From Bacteroidales bacterium (GTDB taxonomy: Bacteria > Bacteroidota > Bacteroidia > Bacteroidales > UBA932), in contig JAFSVL010000041.1 of the NCBI GenBank assembly GCA_017445015.1, positions 1-37,930 of the forward strand: a DNA stretch of 37,930 nt, given 5' to 3'. Positions 4,321 to 31,292 of the stretch are shown one piece after another. Position numbers and translations under genes: made by a program. Below the pieces are notes generated by a model. The model had not been told where the DNA came from, searched no databases, and saw only the letters and a program-made list of their open reading frames with translations. The first letter of the stretch is position 1, and every line of letters starts with the position of its first letter.

Positions 4321-5346
4321 ATGGCAAAAATTGTAACGCTGGGCGAGATTATGCTCCGCCTATCGCCTGCCGGAAATGACAGGTTTATCCAGACGGAAAT
4401 GCTGCGGATCATTCCGGGCGGCGGAGAGGCGAATGTCGCCGTCAGTCTGGCCAATTATGGCCACGAGGCTTATTTTGTGAGCAAACTGCCCAAGCACGAA
4501 ATCGGGCAGATTGCCGTGAACGGGCTGCGCCGCTATGGCGTCCGCACGGACTTTATCGCCCGCGGGGGTGACCGCGTGGGCCTCTATTATGCCGAGACCG
4601 GTGCGTCGATGCGTCCGTCGAAGGTCATCTATGACCGGGCGCATTCCGCCATCGCCGAGGCGAATCCGGAGGATTTTGATTTCGACGCCATTATGGAGGG
4701 TGCGGCCTGGTTCCACTGGTCCGGCATTACGCCCGCCGTTTCCGACAAGGCGGCCGAACTGACGCGTCTGGCCTGCGAGGCCGCAAAGCGCAACGGCGTC
4801 ACCGTATCCGTCGATCTCAATTTCCGCAAGAAACTCTGGACCTCCGAGAAAGCGATTTCCGTGATGCGCCCCCTGATGAAATATGTGGATATCTGCATAG
4901 GCAATGAAGAGGACGCTGAACTGTGCCTGGGCTTCAAGCCTGACGCGGATGTGGAAGGCGGCAGCACCGATGCGGCCGGCTATGAGGGAATCTTCCGCCA
5001 GATGAAGGAGGAATTCGGCTTCAAGTATGTGGTTTCCACCCTGCGCGAGTCCTTCTCCGCAACGTTCAACGGCTGGAAGGCGCTTATCTATGACGGAAAG
5101 GAGTTCTATCAGTCCAAGCGCTACGAAATCAATCCCATCATCGACCGCGTGGGCGGCGGGGATTCGTTCTCCGGCGGCCTGATTCACGGCATGCTCAAAT
5201 ATCCCGGCAACCAGGGTGCGGCGCTCGAGTTCGCGGTGGCGGCCTCCGCGCTCAAGCACACGGTTAACGGAGACTTCAATCTCGTCAGCGAAGACGAAGT
5301 CCTGAGCCTTGCCGGGGGCAATGCGAACGGCAGGGTGCAACGCTAA
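4321..5346 (+). CDS. kdgK: 2-dehydro-3-deoxygluconokinase KdgK (PfkB family)
   Basis: Phosphorylates KDG to KDPG using ATP. The 341-residue protein is a PfkB/ribokinase-type sugar kinase. The N-terminal part has PGGGEANVAVSLANYG (signature 1, ~32-47). The C-terminal signature DRVGGGDSFSGGLIHG carries the catalytic base Asp281 and the anion-hole glycines. Specificity for KDG rather than fructose or ribose is inferred mainly from context: it lies directly between uxaC and the KDPG aldolase. The start is one base after the uxaC stop. An 81-base palindromic element follows four bases after its own stop codon and separates it from kdgA. Confidence 0.93.
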   Translation: MAKIVTLGEIMLRLSPAGNDRFIQTEMLRIIPGGGEANVAVSLANYGHEAYFVSKLPKHEIGQIAVNGLRRYGVRTDFIARGGDRVGLYYAETGASMRPSKVIYDRAHSAIAEANPEDFDFDAIMEGAAWFHWSGITPAVSDKAAELTRLACEAAKRNGVTVSVDLNFRKKLWTSEKAISVMRPLMKYVDICIGNEEDAELCLGFKPDADVEGGSTDAAGYEGIFRQMKEEFGFKYVVSTLRESFSATFNGWKALIYDGKEFYQSKRYEINPIIDRVGGGDSFSGGLIHGMLKYPGNQGAALEFAVAASALKHTVNGDFNLVSEDEVLSLAGGNANGRVQR

Positions 5347-5350
5347 AATA

Positions 5351-5429
5351 GAAGCAGTTTGCAACGTTAGGGGGCATTTACCCGGATAGGGTTGCGCAGC
5401 AACAAGCCCCCGCTGTTGCAAACTGCTTC
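5351..5429. repeat. Palindromic structured element, copy 1 (three-way-junction core)
   Basis: A perfect 15-bp inverted repeat (5351-5365, GAAGCAGTTTGCAAC, with 5415-5429) encloses a 42-nt core at 5370-5411. The core folds as a closing stem GGGGGC/GCCCCC (5370-5375 with 5406-5411), a hairpin ACCC-GGATA-GGGT (5380-5392) and a hairpin TTGC-GCA-GCAA (5392-5402), making a three-way junction. A second core at 29827-29868 has the same length and 37 of 42 identical bases. The element lies between kdgK and kdgA, four bases after the kdgK stop. No T-tract follows, so a simple intrinsic terminator is unlikely in this direction. An RNA-level role (processing, stability or graded expression within the operon) is inference. 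Confidence 0.8.
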
Positions 5430-5445
5430 CAAACCATTAAACGAT

Positions 5446-6114
5446 ATGGCAAAGTACAATAAATTACAAGTAATTGCGGCGATGCAGCAGACCGGGATGG
5501 TCCCCGTGTTTTACAACGCCGACATTGAAATTTCAAAGAAGGTCCTGAAAGCCTGCTACGACGGGGGCGTACGTGCCTTCGAATTTACCAACCGCGGGGA
5601 TTTCGCGCAGGAGGTTTTCAAGGAACTCGTCAAGTATGCTGGCAAGGAACTTCCCGGAATGATCCTGGGGATAGGTTCCGTTGTCGATGCCGGCACGGCC
5701 GCCCTGTATCTGCAGCTGGGCGCCAATTTCGTGGTGGGTCCCCTCTTCAATCCGGACATCGCTCCGGTATGCAACCGCCGTCTGGTGCCCTACTGCCCCG
5801 GCTGCGGCAGCGTAAGCGAGGTGGGGAAAGCCCAGGAACTGGGCTGCGACGTGTGCAAGGTCTTCCCCGGTGACGTGCTCGGCCCCAAGTTCGTCAAGGG
5901 TCTGCGTGCACCGATGCCCTGGAGCAATATCATGGTGACCGGAGGCGTGAAACCCGAAAAGGAAAACCTCAAGGGCTGGTTTGACGCGGGAGTAACCTGC
6001 GTGGGCATGGGCTCCAACCTGTTCCCGAAAGAAGTGATGGCGGCCGGGAACTGGGCCGCGATAACCGACCTCTGCAAGGAGGCCCTCGACATTATCAAAG
6101 AAGTAAGAAAATAA
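5446..6114 (+). CDS. kdgA: KDPG aldolase (bifunctional 4-hydroxy-2-oxoglutarate/KDPG aldolase type)
   Basis: Cleaves 2-keto-3-deoxy-6-phosphogluconate to pyruvate and glyceraldehyde-3-phosphate, ending the hexuronate pathway. The ATG at 5446 gives 222 residues starting [20 protein letters not shown]; the longer in-frame extension would run through the palindrome and was rejected. It is a class I TIM-barrel aldolase. The Schiff-base lysine is Lys138 in [13 protein letters not shown], and the proton-shuttling Glu46 sits in FEFTNRG. The GIGSV and VTGGVKPE phosphate-binding segments are present. Length is normal for Eda/KdgA. It is the third gene of the uxaC operon, and exuT begins nine bases after its stop. 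Confidence 0.94.
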
Positions 6115-6123
6115 TAATACCCC

Positions 6124-7578
6124 ATGAGTACACAAACCAAACTGATGACCAACTGGCGTTGGTGGCTCTGCTCCCTGCTCTTCGTGGCGACGACCGTGAA
6201 CTACCTCGACCGCCAGGTCCTATCCCTCACTTATGAGGAATTTATCAAGCCGGAGTTCCACTGGACCGATGCCAATTACGGCACCATCACCAGTTTCTTC
6301 TCCATCTTCTATGCGATTGCCTGCCTCTTTGCCGGAAAGTTCGTGGACTGGATGGGCACCAAGAAGGGTTACCTCATCGCCATCGGCGTATGGTCGGCGG
6401 GCGCCTGCCTGCATGCCGCATGCGGCTGGGCGACGGCCCTTTTCACTCCCGGCGTAGAGAGCGCCATCGCGCTGAAGGCCATCGAAGCCGGCAGTAATAT
6501 CGCGCTTGCAGTATCCACCACCTCGGTCTATCTGTTCCTGCTCTGCCGCGGCATCCTGGCACTGGGCGAGGCCGGGAACTTCCCTGCCGCCATCAAGGTA
6601 ACCGCCGAGTACTTCCCCAAGAAAGACCGCGCCTTCGCGACCTCCATCTTCAATGCCGGTGCCTCCGTAGGCGCCCTTGCGGCTCCGCTGTGCATCCCGC
6701 CCCTCGCCGTGAAATTCGGTTGGGAGATGGCTTTCATCATCATCGGCGCTCTGGGATTCATCTGGATGTTCTTCTGGGCCTTCATGTATGAAAAGCCCGA
6801 GAACAGCAAACACGTCAATGAAGCGGAACTGGAGTACATCCATCAGGACGACGCTGCCGAGGCGGCAGAAAAGGCGGCCATCGCCGCACAGAAGGCCATC
6901 CCCTTCGGGAAATGCTTCGGCTACAAGCAGACCTGGGCCTTCATTGTCGGCAAGTTCTTCACCGACGGCGTATGGTGGTTCTTCCTCTTCTGGGCTCCTT
7001 CCTACTTCAGCAACCAGTTCTCCGCCCCCGCCACTTCCGGGCTGGGTCAAGCGCTGATTTTCACGCTCTATGCGATTGTGACCGTCATTTCCATCGGCGG
7101 CGGTTATCTGCCCAAGATTTTCGTGGATAAGAAGGGAATGAATCCCTATAACGGCCGTATGCTGGCGATGCTGATTTTCGCCTTCTTCCCGATTGCCGCG
7201 CTTTTTGCACAGCCCCTTGGAATGCACTTCGACAGCCCCTGGTGGCCGGCCATCCTCATCGGCCTCGCCGGTGCGGGACATCAGGCCTGGTCCGCGAACC
7301 TCTTCTCCACCATCGGAGACATGTTCCCCAAGAGCACCATCGCCACCATCACCGGTATCGGAGCCATGGCGGGCGGCGTCGGTTCAATGATTATCCAAAA
7401 GGTTGCAGGCAACCTCTTCACCTACGCCGAGAATGCCGGCTCCGCCTTCACGTTCTTCGGATTCGAGGGCAAGCCGGCCGGCTATTTCATCATGTTCTGT
7501 TTCTGCGGCATTGCCTACCTCATTGCCTGGAGCATCATGAAATCGCTGGTCCCGAAGTACAAACCTATCGAAGTATAA
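6124..7578 (+). CDS. exuT: Hexuronate transporter, MFS anion:cation symporter family (ExuT-like)
   Basis: An inner-membrane major facilitator of 484 residues, probably importing galacturonate and glucuronate with protons. The N-terminus WRWWLCSLLFVATTVNYLDR is typical of the ACS family (ExuT, GudP, GarP), where NYxDR in helix 1 is conserved. The next loop contains the MFS motif-A-like GKFVDWMGTKKGY, and RGILALGEAGNFPAAIK is another ACS hallmark. About twelve hydrophobic segments are visible, with a charged, Ala/Glu-rich central loop near residues 225-260. Substrate is inferred from its place as the last catabolic gene of the uxaC-kdgK-kdgA operon. Confidence 0.9.
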   Translation: MSTQTKLMTNWRWWLCSLLFVATTVNYLDRQVLSLTYEEFIKPEFHWTDANYGTITSFFSIFYAIACLFAGKFVDWMGTKKGYLIAIGVWSAGACLHAACGWATALFTPGVESAIALKAIEAGSNIALAVSTTSVYLFLLCRGILALGEAGNFPAAIKVTAEYFPKKDRAFATSIFNAGASVGALAAPLCIPPLAVKFGWEMAFIIIGALGFIWMFFWAFMYEKPENSKHVNEAELEYIHQDDAAEAAEKAAIAAQKAIPFGKCFGYKQTWAFIVGKFFTDGVWWFFLFWAPSYFSNQFSAPATSGLGQALIFTLYAIVTVISIGGGYLPKIFVDKKGMNPYNGRMLAMLIFAFFPIAALFAQPLGMHFDSPWWPAILIGLAGAGHQAWSANLFSTIGDMFPKSTIATITGIGAMAGGVGSMIIQKVAGNLFTYAENAGSAFTFFGFEGKPAGYFIMFCFCGIAYLIAWSIMKSLVPKYKPIEV

Positions 7579-28401: not shown

Positions 28402-29182
28402 AAAAGTAAAGATGGAGGCCTTCGGGCGACTGTTGGACATTATGGATGCGCTGCGCGAAAAGTGCCCGTGGAATGCAGAGCAGACGATGGAAAGCATCCG
28501 GCCGCTGACCGAAGAGGAAGTCTATGAGTTGAGCGACGCTATCCTGAAAAATGAGCCGGAAGCCGTCTGCAAGGAAATCGGAGACCTGCTGTACCACCTT
28601 GTCTTTTACGCGCGCATCGCGCAGGAGAAGGGACTCTTCGATATCGCGGACAGCCTGGAGAAAGTCTGCGGTAAAATGATATTCCGCCATCCGCACGTCT
28701 TCGGGAACAGTAACGGAAGGACACCGAGCGCCAAGGAAATCGCCGACACCTGGGAACTGGTCAAGGCCAAGGAAAAAGGCGGGAACAAGACCGTCATGGC
28801 CGGGATTCCCGATGCGATGCCTGCCGTTCTCAAGGCCCTGTCGATGCAGGAAAAGGCGCGCGGCTGCGGATTCGACTGGGAAAAGCCGGAAGATGTCTGG
28901 GACAAGGTGCGCGAAGAACTGGAGGAGGCGCGCGAAGCCTGCGGCGGGAAAGACGCGGCGCACAGGGAAGAAGAATTCGGGGACCTGCTCTTCGCGGTCA
29001 TCAATGCCTCCCGCCTCTACGGAACGGACCCCGAGGCGGCCCTGAACAAGGCCTGCGCCAAATTCCGGAGACGTTTCGGCTACCTTGAAGAAAATACGCT
29101 GAAAAGGGGTATCGACCTGGGAAGTCTCACCCTGGCCCAGATGGACGCCATCTGGGATGAAGCCAAGGCGAAAGGGCTATAG
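28391..29182 (+). CDS. mazG: Nucleoside triphosphate pyrophosphohydrolase MazG
   Basis: Hydrolyses (d)NTPs to monophosphates and pyrophosphate, a house-cleaning role. The 263-residue protein has the tandem MazG layout. The first domain holds LREKCPWNAEQTMESIRPL and EEEVYELSDAIL with the metal-binding Glu residues, then EIGDLLYHLVFYARIA. The second domain has REELEEAREACGGK and EEEFGDLLFAVINASRL. Length matches E. coli MazG (263). The ATG at 28391 agrees with family N-termini (M-H-x-K...). It is transcribed alone and converges on the cytidylate-kinase-like gene, overlapping it by six bases at the 3' ends. Confidence 0.94.
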   Translation: MHTKKVKMEAFGRLLDIMDALREKCPWNAEQTMESIRPLTEEEVYELSDAILKNEPEAVCKEIGDLLYHLVFYARIAQEKGLFDIADSLEKVCGKMIFRHPHVFGNSNGRTPSAKEIADTWELVKAKEKGGNKTVMAGIPDAMPAVLKALSMQEKARGCGFDWEKPEDVWDKVREELEEAREACGGKDAAHREEEFGDLLFAVINASRLYGTDPEAALNKACAKFRRRFGYLEENTLKRGIDLGSLTLAQMDAIWDEAKAKGL

Positions 29183-29788
29183 CAGCCCCCGCATCCGGGC
29201 ATAGGTGACGACCAGGTCCGCCGCGGCATCGATTCCCAGGCGGGAAGTATTGAGGCACAAATCGTACTGGGCCGCATCACCCCACCGGCCGAAAGTATAG
29301 AATTCGTACCAGTCGCGGCGCATCTTGTCGTTCTTGCGGATGAAAGCCTCCGCCTCCTTTTCGCCAATCTGTTCCCGCCCGGCAATGGCCGCAATCCGGT
29401 CGGGGAGGTCCGCGGTCAGGAAAAGGCTGACAAGGTCGTCGCGGTCGCGCAGGACATAATCCGCCGCCCGCCCCACGAAGATGCAGGAGCCCCCGTCAGC
29501 CAGACGCCGTATCGCTTCGCTTTGCAGCTTGAACAACTCTCCTTCGCTGATGGCGTTGCTGTTAAAATGGCCGTAACGGTTGGACCCGAAAAGGCTCCCG
29601 ATCATCGAGAAATGACGCTTTTCGTCGCTTTTACGGAAGAGCGAGGCACTGAAACCGCTCTCGCGGGCCGCCTCGGTCACCAGTTCATGGTCATACACGG
29701 GAATGGACAGCAGCTCGGACAAACGGGCAGCCACCCGCCGGCCCCCAGCCCCGGTCTGTCGTCCGATACATATAATCAGTCTGTTCAT
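29177..29788 (-). CDS. Cytidylate-kinase-like P-loop protein
   Basis: A 203-residue protein of the cytidylate kinase-like family common in Bacteroidota. The N-terminus MNRLIICIGRQTGAGGRRV has an atypical P-loop, GRQTGAGG at 9-16. VYDHELVTEAARESGF resembles the CMP kinase substrate region, and RADLPDRIAAIAG-like helices with KNDKMRRDWYEFYTFGRWG form the lid. Its substrate is not known; canonical Cmk is a different protein. The ATG at 29788 begins the P-loop strand, and the 12 extra codons upstream reach into the palindrome, so the longer start was rejected. It lies downstream of the MATE gene, separated by element copy 2. Confidence 0.84.
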   Translation of the reverse strand: MNRLIICIGRQTGAGGRRVAARLSELLSIPVYDHELVTEAARESGFSASLFRKSDEKRHFSMIGSLFGSNRYGHFNSNAISEGELFKLQSEAIRRLADGGSCIFVGRAADYVLRDRDDLVSLFLTADLPDRIAAIAGREQIGEKEAEAFIRKNDKMRRDWYEFYTFGRWGDAAQYDLCLNTSRLGIDAAADLVVTYARMRGLL

Positions 29789-29803: not shown

Positions 29804-29889
29804 TATAAAAATTACCTGGCTCATAAGGGCACATTTACCCGGATAGGGTTGCGGAGCAACAAGTGCCCGTGAGGCAGGTGATTTTTATA
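29804..29889. repeat. Palindromic structured element, copy 2 (three-way-junction core)
   Basis: Outer arms of 20 bases (29804-29823 with 29870-29889; one mismatch and one wobble-type pair) enclose a 42-nt core at 29827-29868. The core has a closing stem GGGCAC/GTGCCC (29827-29832 with 29863-29868), a hairpin ACCC-GGATA-GGGT (29837-29849) and a hairpin TTGC-GGA-GCAA (29849-29859). It matches the core at 5370-5411 with two compensated base pairs in the closing stem and one loop change. It begins two bases after the MATE stop on the minus strand, so its core is antisense to transcription here, whereas copy 1 is sense. T-rich arm ends on both strands mean a bidirectional terminator is also possible. 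Confidence 0.8.
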
Positions 29890-29891
29890 TT

Positions 29892-31292
29892 TTATTCCAT
29901 AATATTGCTGCCCAGGGTTACGGGGTCTTCACCGTCCTTGAGCCCGGACAATTTCCGGAAGAGGGCGGCGACAAAAAACGCAGACACCACCACGGACAGC
30001 GTATCCGATACCGGGAATCCCCACCACACGCCGTCCACTTCCAGCCAGAAGGGCAGCGCATAGACCAGCGGAAGAAGGAAAATCAACTGCCGGCTCAGCG
30101 AGAGGAATACCGATTTCTTCACCATACCGAGGCACTGGAAAAGGTTCGAGGTTACGATGCCGAAACCCACCAGGCCGAATCCGCAGTTCATGATACGCAT
30201 GGCGCGGGCGGCCAGAGAGATGAGTTGCGGGTCATTCGTAAACAGGCCCACGGCCTGGCGCGGGAAGAACATCGACAGCAGGAAGCACAGCAGGGTAACC
30301 AGCACGGCCCACCCCGCCGTCAGGAGGAAAACCTCCCGCACCCGGCTATAGAGGCGCGCTCCGAAATTATAGCCTGCGATGGGCTGCAGGCCCTGGTTGA
30401 GTCCCATGCAAATCATGATGAAGAGCATGGTAAAGCGGTTCACGATGCCGAAGGCCCCGATGGGAAGGTCCCCGCCATAGCGTCCGAGCTGCTGGTTGAT
30501 GAACAGGGACACCAGGCAGGCGGCGACATTCATCAGGAAAGGACCGATGCCGACGGCCATCGACTGCCTTGCGATGCGGCCGTCCAACTGGAACAGCGGC
30601 TTCGGGAAGTGCAGGAAGCGATTTTGGTCCGCGAGGAAACGGAGCGTATAGACGAGCGCCAGGATCTGGCAGAGAACGGTCGCGACAGCCGCTCCCCGGA
30701 TGCCCATCCCCAGACCGAAGATGAACAGGGGGTCCAGGACGGCATTGGAAATCACCGTAAAGAGCGTAAGCCCCATCGCCGTCCGGGGATGCCCCGATAC
30801 GCGGATGATGCCGTTGAACCCGTGAAGCAGGTGCGTAAAGACGTTTCCGATGAGGATAATCAGCATATAATCCCGCGCAAAGGGCAGGGTTACGTCGCTT
30901 GCACCGAAAAAACGAAGGACCGGATCCAGGAAGGCAATGGACAAGGCGGTAAAGACTGCGCCGATAATGATGTTGAGGCTCAGCGTATTGGCGAGCACCT
31001 TGCGGGCCGTATCATAATTCTTCTGGCCGAGCAGGACGGAAATCAGCGTCATGGCCCCCACGCCGACCAGCGTGCCGAGGGCGACGGAGAGGTTCATCAG
31101 CGGGAACGTGACGGCCAGGCCGCTGATGGCGGAGGCCCCTACACCCGGAATGTGCCCGATGTAGATGCTGTCCACCATATTGTAGAGCGACGCCGCCGTC
31201 TGGGCGATGATGCCCGGTACGGCATAGTCGCGCAGCAGGCGGCTGACCTTCTGTGTCCCGAGTTCAAGCGGGGCGGCGGAAGCGGAAGGCAT
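29892..31292 (-). CDS. MATE family efflux transporter
   Basis: A 466-residue inner-membrane multidrug/toxin extrusion protein with about twelve hydrophobic helices in two homologous halves. The N-terminal block LGTQKVSRLLRDYAVPGIIAQ and YNMVDSIYIGHIPGVGASAI (helix 1-2 signature of MATE proteins) is clear; the second half has the related GLNQGLQPIAGYNFGAR. It would couple export of cations or drugs to Na+ or H+. Its start overlaps the FKBP-like lipoprotein stop (TAATG), placing it third in the DHH, FKBP, MATE run. Confidence 0.92.
   Translation of the reverse strand: MPSASAAPLELGTQKVSRLLRDYAVPGIIAQTAASLYNMVDSIYIGHIPGVGASAISGLAVTFPLMNLSVALGTLVGVGAMTLISVLLGQKNYDTARKVLANTLSLNIIIGAVFTALSIAFLDPVLRFFGASDVTLPFARDYMLIILIGNVFTHLLHGFNGIIRVSGHPRTAMGLTLFTVISNAVLDPLFIFGLGMGIRGAAVATVLCQILALVYTLRFLADQNRFLHFPKPLFQLDGRIARQSMAVGIGPFLMNVAACLVSLFINQQLGRYGGDLPIGAFGIVNRFTMLFIMICMGLNQGLQPIAGYNFGARLYSRVREVFLLTAGWAVLVTLLCFLLSMFFPRQAVGLFTNDPQLISLAARAMRIMNCGFGLVGFGIVTSNLFQCLGMVKKSVFLSLSRQLIFLLPLVYALPFWLEVDGVWWGFPVSDTLSVVVSAFFVAALFRKLSGLKDGEDPVTLGSNIME

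Follow-up and report, generated by a model that had tools for sequence, protein, structure and literature searches.

Within the window, by which we mean the whole stretch of 37,930 nucleotides that was analysed, two intergenic palindromes share a core that differs between them at paired positions, and the question that this locus raises is whether the paired changes record selection on a fold kept in place, as the original prediction had it, or a different history. The 42-nt core at 5370-5411 does recur at 29827-29868 with 37 of 42 bases identical, and the five differences comprise two closing-stem exchanges, G-C to C-G and G-C to A-T, and a single base in a terminal triloop; the outer arms are palindromic in each copy and unrelated between copies 1 and 2. 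A three-way junction had been proposed for both copies; its ACCC/GGGT and TTGC/GCAA hairpins cannot both form in full because T 5392 is common to the two. When up to three mismatches were allowed, the inner 17-mer of the core had two matches in the window, both of them exact, against a mean of 0.10 in shuffled windows, and none of 100 shuffled windows contained two. The + strand folds better than shuffled sequence both as DNA (z -6.8 for copy 1 and -5.1 for copy 2) and as RNA (z -7.4 and -5.8), while folds of the - strand are weaker (DNA z -5.3 and -3.3, RNA z -5.6 and -4.7 for copies 1 and 2, respectively), with 2 of 200 shuffles folding as well as copy 2 on the - strand as DNA. Copy 1 is located between the PfkB kinase and KDPG aldolase genes and copy 2 between the cytidylate-kinase-like and MatE genes (Table 1). 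The forked tip, predicted to consist of a short stem bearing two small hairpins, is the part that is alike in sequence between copies: in 18 aligned copies it is invariant except for the triloop and one nearly invariant A. Its second hairpin has the form GC-GNA-GC, which we take to be an unusually stable DNA mini-hairpin.

Table 1. Features of the two palindromes and their neighbouring genes, in window coordinates.
Feature	Positions	Strand	Basis and remarks
Copy 1, whole palindrome, type A	5351..5429	+	Covariance-model match G000:C92:5354-5430, 93.9 bits; empty in sister G102
Copy 1, outer left arm	5351..5366	+	Pairs with 5414-5429; folding
Copy 1, closing stem, 5' side	5370..5375	+	Pairs with 5406-5411; covariation, folding
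Copy 1, conserved forked tip	5376..5405	+	ATTT, GGATA-loop hairpin, GTTGC-GCA-GCAAC hairpin, AA
Copy 1, outer right arm	5414..5429	+	Folding
Copy 2, whole palindrome, type A	29809..29884	+	Covariance-model match G000:C92:29811-29886, 81.6 bits; empty in sister G101
Copy 2, core (closing stem and forked tip)	29827..29868	+	Sequence, 17-mer count
Copy 2, outer right arm	29869..29884	+	Sequence, DNA folding
PfkB-family carbohydrate kinase (context, outside the element)	4321..5346	+	E 1e-29
KDPG/KHG aldolase (context)	5446..6114	+	E 7e-30
Cytidylate-kinase-like (context)	29177..29785	-	E 1.5e-51
MatE transporter (context)	29892..31292	-	E 7.4e-47

Size and spread of the family

In this genome (G000) the tip 15-mer ACCCGGATAGGGTTG has 27 exact occurrences and its reversed control has none, and the same 15-mer is absent from 100 relatives, 60 of which belong to the same genus. 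A covariance-model search, the check proposed together with the original prediction, returned 52 matches in G000, some of them partial, and extended the family to 13 of the 60 other genomes of the genus (14 of 61 counting G000). Tb.RUG.181 (G102) has 49 matches. The element is patchy within the genus, and tip variants differ between species groups. By our sorting there are two types: type A, to which the 18 aligned copies belong, and type B, which by eye has GA opposite GA and is represented by six clear and two degenerate copies. Copies measure roughly 70-150 bp. The absence from named families that had been supposed was borne out for Rfam, where no match at gathering level was found in the window and a permissive search near copy 1 gave a single 9-bit hit with an E value of 3.4; it has to be qualified in that the element resembles REP- and RPE-like mobile palindromes, by kind only.

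In named genomes, the tip pattern was found in at least 107 stretches. Among the matches listed (80), 79 bear the name Bacteroidales or Bacteroidia, and many titles mention a ruminant host. Also among the matches listed is a short contig titled Schwartzia sp. (L199, JAFSWT010000131.1) with the exact tip, which is probably a mis-binned Bacteroidales contig. An order-wide search found the element in 0 of 392 other genomes, which is weak evidence of absence because 12 candidates per genome were scored and two others of the same genus are among the 21 entries listed. The tip pattern had no match in viral contigs, and a looser pattern gave six matches, none of them element-like in fold (by eye); nor did copy 1 match phages or plasmids, or a 6-kb piece of the window match plasmids. 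With no true copy in these viral, phage and plasmid collections, we rejected a phage or plasmid origin.

Several copies have local peculiarities. Two in G000 (L003/L004, C15:384-619), separated by 159 bp and with nearly the same sequence around them, form a tandem duplication; three in G102 (L355, L356 and L400) have a second-hairpin loop of four bases (GCAA, GTCA) in place of the three found elsewhere, so that loop length varies; and one in G020 (L123, C29) is followed by a short tandem repeat (AATGGCATTGATGCTATGG-like) that is shorter in RUG510.

Insertions with copy-specific matched arms

G000 was compared with two sister genomes, G102, which is 75-91% identical in the compared pieces, and RUG11938 (G101), which is 74-84% identical over the window pieces. 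An orthologous stretch in one or the other was identified for 36 of the 52 G000 copies, and for 21 of these, both window copies included, the stretch is empty, meaning that it contains no tip pattern (20 sites, since two of the 21 are one site); in the remaining 15 cases the sister stretch holds some copy. The copies are thus insertions. As most of the empty spacers inspected contain neither arm (by eye), the palindrome appears to be inserted as a whole. At one pair of loci, L016 is common to G000 and RUG11938 and L015 is absent from the latter, a 71-bp difference within flanks of 99% identity, and L015 carries a 12-bp direct repeat. General target-site duplication was not seen, direct repeats being near control levels in 81 copies. 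The region around these two loci (L266/L308 on RUG11938 C15, L015/L016 on G000:C78) is itself unusual in that several kb are about 98-99% identical between genomes that share 74-85% elsewhere, reflecting either a recent transfer or a mis-binned contig.

We consider it probable that the two window hairpins represent a mobile palindromic DNA element that is non-autonomous and behaves in an RPE/REP-like way, and the second arm of which is likely templated by the first at each transposition. A related model would have the tip alone move and copy its arms from flanking host DNA, so that one arm was present before insertion. In line with that, the outer part of the copy 2 left arm resembles the empty spacer and, by eye, the arm that lies upstream in the sense of the gene is similar to the empty orthologue in three cases, the argE-like, C135 and fmt genes; these resemblances weigh against our preferred explanation as well. 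However, the empty orthologues of rsmH and uvrA show neither arm, as is true of most empty spacers inspected, the arms of copies inside genes share a loose consensus across genes, and the repeat at L015 is direct and not inverted; we regard this model as unlikely. When 1.11 Mb of G102 and the window were scanned with a strict pattern, no split copy was found, which also counts against a mobile palindrome. Capture of arms from elsewhere in the genome was rejected, there being no excess of arm matches over the control in 1.11 Mb of G102.

The covariation noted at the outset is real. In the type A alignment 91.5% of cells are paired in the structure assigned to it, a level that none of 500 shuffles reached; the covariation score is 0.412 as compared with 0.149 after shuffling (again 0 of 500), and 13 of 26 pairs carry a change on both sides, against 9.8 in shuffles (12 of 500 reach this number). 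For a broader view of the arms we used 227 copies, obtained from 471 tip-pattern matches after dropping those less than 70 nt from a locus end and including copies at orthologous sites. Within a copy the median arm match score is 33, compared with 12 both when arms are mismatched and when left arms of different copies are aligned, and 209 of the 227 copies score above the 95th percentile of the control. None exceeds the control maximum of 67, which we counted against a mobile palindrome, and which in our reading stems from related copies. Copies of the type found inside genes also have matched arms: in 59 copies with 20 arm pairs each, 96.7% of cells are paired, against a shuffle mean of 66.5%, and 364 cells are changed on both sides, against a shuffle maximum of 122. 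Of these 1180 cells, 1107 are Watson-Crick, 34 are G.T or T.G and 39 are other mismatches (21 A.C or C.A and 18 remaining), and arms are perfectly Watson-Crick in 22 of the 59 copies, although the median number of differences between left arms of different copies is 9 in 20 positions. Nearly every copy has arms of its own that match each other.

Arms could have come to match in two ways, by compensation at a standing site or at birth, and copies shared between genomes bear on this. Four pairs, hand-picked as clearly shared (L013/L346, L023/L339, L047/L224 and L088/L203), differ at eight arm positions, all eight on one side only, and five of these changes break a pair. For 15 G000 sites the sister stretch holds a copy, and the 13 comparable ones are two-peaked, showing either the same copy or unrelated arms: four are near-identical (70-77 of 77 bases), with eight one-sided and no two-sided changes between them, and nine have different arms, with 4-12 two-sided and 0-11 one-sided changes each. 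At one site the near-identical copies (G000:C85:16443-16507 and L402 of G102, 70 of 77 bases) stand in opposite orientation in the matched stretch, through either an inversion in place or a separate insertion. A different balance was seen at 19 orthologous site pairs within genes, which include two of the four hand-picked pairs: 103 of 133 changed arm positions are two-sided with pairing kept, 25 are one-sided and five are two-sided without pairing. Two of the 19 pairs have only one-sided changes (one and three), seven only two-sided ones and ten both kinds, including a pair with four both-sided and three one-sided changes and another with four of each. Flank identity is 81 and 88 in the one-sided pairs, and some pairs at 80-82 show two-sided changes throughout.

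Because arm changes are one-sided in the clearly shared copies, arms seem to be born matched and to decay afterwards, a one-sided decay that is supported by few cases; the two-sided pairs within genes we prefer to read as repeated insertion at tolerant sites, although compensation in place may have occurred there. The hand-picking of the four pairs and the full comparison of all pairs made us slightly less confident in the mobile palindrome. The competing view, that an old, MITE-like palindromic element had its arms changed by compensation in place, draws on the very 103 of 133 two-sided positions with pairing and on the pairs of mixed kind. It is at odds with the two-peaked G000 sites, with the one-sided changes of clearly shared copies and with the fact that the conserved part is the centre and not the ends, and it appears to us improbable.

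The same observations bear on the original prediction of selection on structure, which we take to mean a structured RNA (a terminator, an mRNA-stability hairpin or a regulatory hairpin) whose fold is maintained where it stands. Strong covariation between copies is what this reading has in its favour, together with the 34 G.T as compared with 21 A.C cells, the A-runs before and T-runs after the stem of some G000 copies, such as copy 2, and the nearly exclusively intergenic position of the G000 copies (0 or 4 of 52 inside genes, depending on the test). Against it, whole units are absent from sister spacers, clearly shared copies change one-sidedly, copies occur in both orientations as well as both between and inside genes, Rfam has no match, and many double changes are transversions (143 of 360 among the in-gene arms). 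Nor is G.T strongly favoured: had the arms changed step by step through G.U, more wobble pairs and transitions than these would be expected. As the covariation lies mostly between different insertions, and clearly shared copies have one-sided changes, it does not support selection on a standing fold and is better ascribed to copying within a mobile family. We consider a structured RNA quite improbable and retain the mobile palindromic element as our preferred explanation.

Copies in frame within genes

By orientation, the G000 copies divide into 12 ++, 23 --, six +- and five -+, with two unclear and four inside genes. The habitat of other carriers can be quite different: the in-gene fraction is 12/13 in G019, 6/6 in G045, 4/5 in G028, 2/2 in G054, 3/3 in G005 and 2/3 in G037, compared with 4/52 in G000, 0/16 in G020 and 1/25 in G006. 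These counts depend on the gene caller, and a stricter test, under which 1 of 139 matches had no locus, gives 0/52 for G000 and 9/13 for G019. A coding-like open frame runs through 61 of the 227 copies, 25 of them on the + strand of the tip and 36 on its - strand. Ten host genes were recognised by NCBIfam models, namely fmt, cysS, the F1 gamma subunit, rsmH, uvrA, prephenate dehydrogenase, metG, dnaX, fabD and an NrnA-like gene, the last with a match below the cut-off.

In-gene copies were compared with empty orthologues, defined as sites without tip or N and with a net length difference of 25-140 in the in-gene case. With the best empty orthologue as reference, the net length is divisible by three in 35 of 35 copies, and over all in-gene pairs of these 35 copies in 88 of 90, with two exceptions; for seven other copies the figure is 5 of 10 pairs. 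The result is partly built in because an open frame defined "in-gene". Two alleles deserve separate mention. Compared with L047 (G037:C10), an atpG allele in G005 (L163, C101:21200-21843) has retained the right arm and is missing most of the tip together with the left arm, an in-frame deficit of 54 bp; we rejected it as a pre-insertion site, as the 3' end of the tip is still present, and it is either a deletion derivative or an assembly artefact. In the orthologue of window 6124-7578 (L082, G027:C50), a transporter loop carries a different in-frame insertion with the peptide VILSASEES/SASEES, a repeat known from other Bacteroidetes.

Open frames follow tip type. They run through 32 of 46 copies with a GTACA tip and 12 of 22 with GGACA plus TCGC, as compared with 7 of 86 with an own-like (G000) tip, 0 of 24 with a G020-like tip and 10 of 49 others. 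When one representative tip per group was considered together with a few arm bases, the tips of G019, G005, G045 and G028 were open in all six frames; the number of open frames was four for G000 type A, four or five for type B, five each for G020 and G055, and one for G006. Since the groups are related, this association of coding capacity with habitat is a correlation and not a set of independent trials.

Mobiliser, known systems and a possible way of copying

An obvious candidate mobiliser is a RAYT, the Y1 transposase that moves REP/REPIN-type repeats, and such a repeat could be what we observe. The Y1_Tnp domain (PF01797) was matched in 45 of 61 genomes of the genus, all 13 other element carriers included, and G020 has an element about 290 bp beyond its only RAYT. 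However, 32 of the 47 genomes without the element have Y1_Tnp as well, and G000, which holds the most copies, has no match in a genome that is 79.75% complete; a RAYT protein query likewise found nothing in G000 or G101 and one weak match in G102. Of 40 Y1_Tnp matches in carriers, we inspected 21 loci, and the G020 locus is the only one with an element nearby, its RAYT being flanked by a different 110-nt repeat pair. The element also has no conserved foot: in the 18-copy alignment the invariant and nearly invariant columns span 12 to 59, not the outer ends. A RAYT-mobilised repeat is therefore unlikely, and with no Y1_Tnp in G000 and an element at 1 of the 21 RAYT loci we dropped RAYT as the mobiliser. 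Several RAYT-like genes of the genus (L178-L197, L126) have their own hairpin repeats next to them.

Double-hairpin elements of fungal mitochondria are inserted in organelle genes and spacers, and parvoviruses have T-shaped terminal hairpins, in which a stem is capped by two small palindromes. By description only, our element is like the former in being a hairpin element inserted in genes and spacers; its likeness to the latter is one of shape, and we claim no homology. Like bacterial MITEs it is non-autonomous, short, palindromic and multi-copy, but it has a conserved centre where MITEs have conserved ends, and general target duplication was not seen. Terminal inverted repeats shared with an IS, as in MITEs, were not found, the arms being unrelated between copies, and our searches gave no partner IS.

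Hairpin elements have been described in mitochondria (PMC2800124). Rickettsia palindromic elements (RPEs) are in-frame palindromes in unrelated protein genes with a conserved peptide, and RPE-4 and RPE-6 have a CGTC end (PMC10969869, PMC3733652). In REP/REPIN and CGTC repeats the stem measures 5-13 bp and a tag, GTAG or CGTC, is present; they hit DNA-repair genes, among them uvrA and, in two species of Xanthomonas and at nearly the same position, recB (PMC3733652). Our element resembles RPEs in the in-frame insertion into unrelated protein genes, seen in the copies of relatives, and in that no mobiliser is named for RPEs in the passages cited and none was found here; by description only, it differs in having a conserved tip, copy-specific arms and no conserved foot. 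With REP/REPINs it shares intergenic palindromes that are sometimes in genes and are uneven between species, as well as the hit in uvrA, but its arms of about 20 bp, the lack of a tag and the lack of a RAYT found in G000 set it apart. By these descriptions, RPEs and intragenic REPs are the nearest known kind, and they have their behaviour in common with the present family. Among the open-licence papers listed for such repeats in Bacteroidales we found no description of this family, and among the open-licence papers listed more widely no account of copying that conserves a tip and leaves the arms free but matched.

A mechanism that would account for these features can be sketched. The element is spread through several species of one Bacteroidales genus, and a putative enzyme, acting in trans, presumably recognises the tip on single-stranded or cruciform DNA. 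A new copy would be born with matching arms, most simply if the element passes through a hairpin intermediate in which fold-back synthesis uses one arm as template for the other; the arms would then differ between copies while matching within each, and after insertion would decay one side at a time. Tolerant sites may be hit again by later insertions. Subfamilies differ in habitat, from nearly all intergenic in G000 to in frame in housekeeping genes, and the latter habitat goes with a tip free of stop codons in every frame. A bolder reading, which we put forward tentatively and do not yet lean towards, is a new class of mobile DNA that inherits nothing but the forked tip: copying through a hairpin intermediate could make arms perfect at birth while leaving them free to mutate between one jump and the next, and lineages with tips free of stop codons in all six frames could colonise housekeeping genes in frame.

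The observation that started this analysis is real and strong, and it was read in the wrong frame. Covariation is usually taken as the mark of a functional RNA, and copying of a mobile element explains it better in the present family; covariation as strong as that found here (364 double-changed cells against at most 122) may arise from mobile palindromes and is a trap for RNA discovery. That the tip is conserved and the arms are free yet matched hints at a mode of copying of which we found no description in the literature searched. Moreover, the element makes in-frame protein insertion testable outside Rickettsia, and in its subfamilies the coding capacity of the tip and the habitat of insertion go together.
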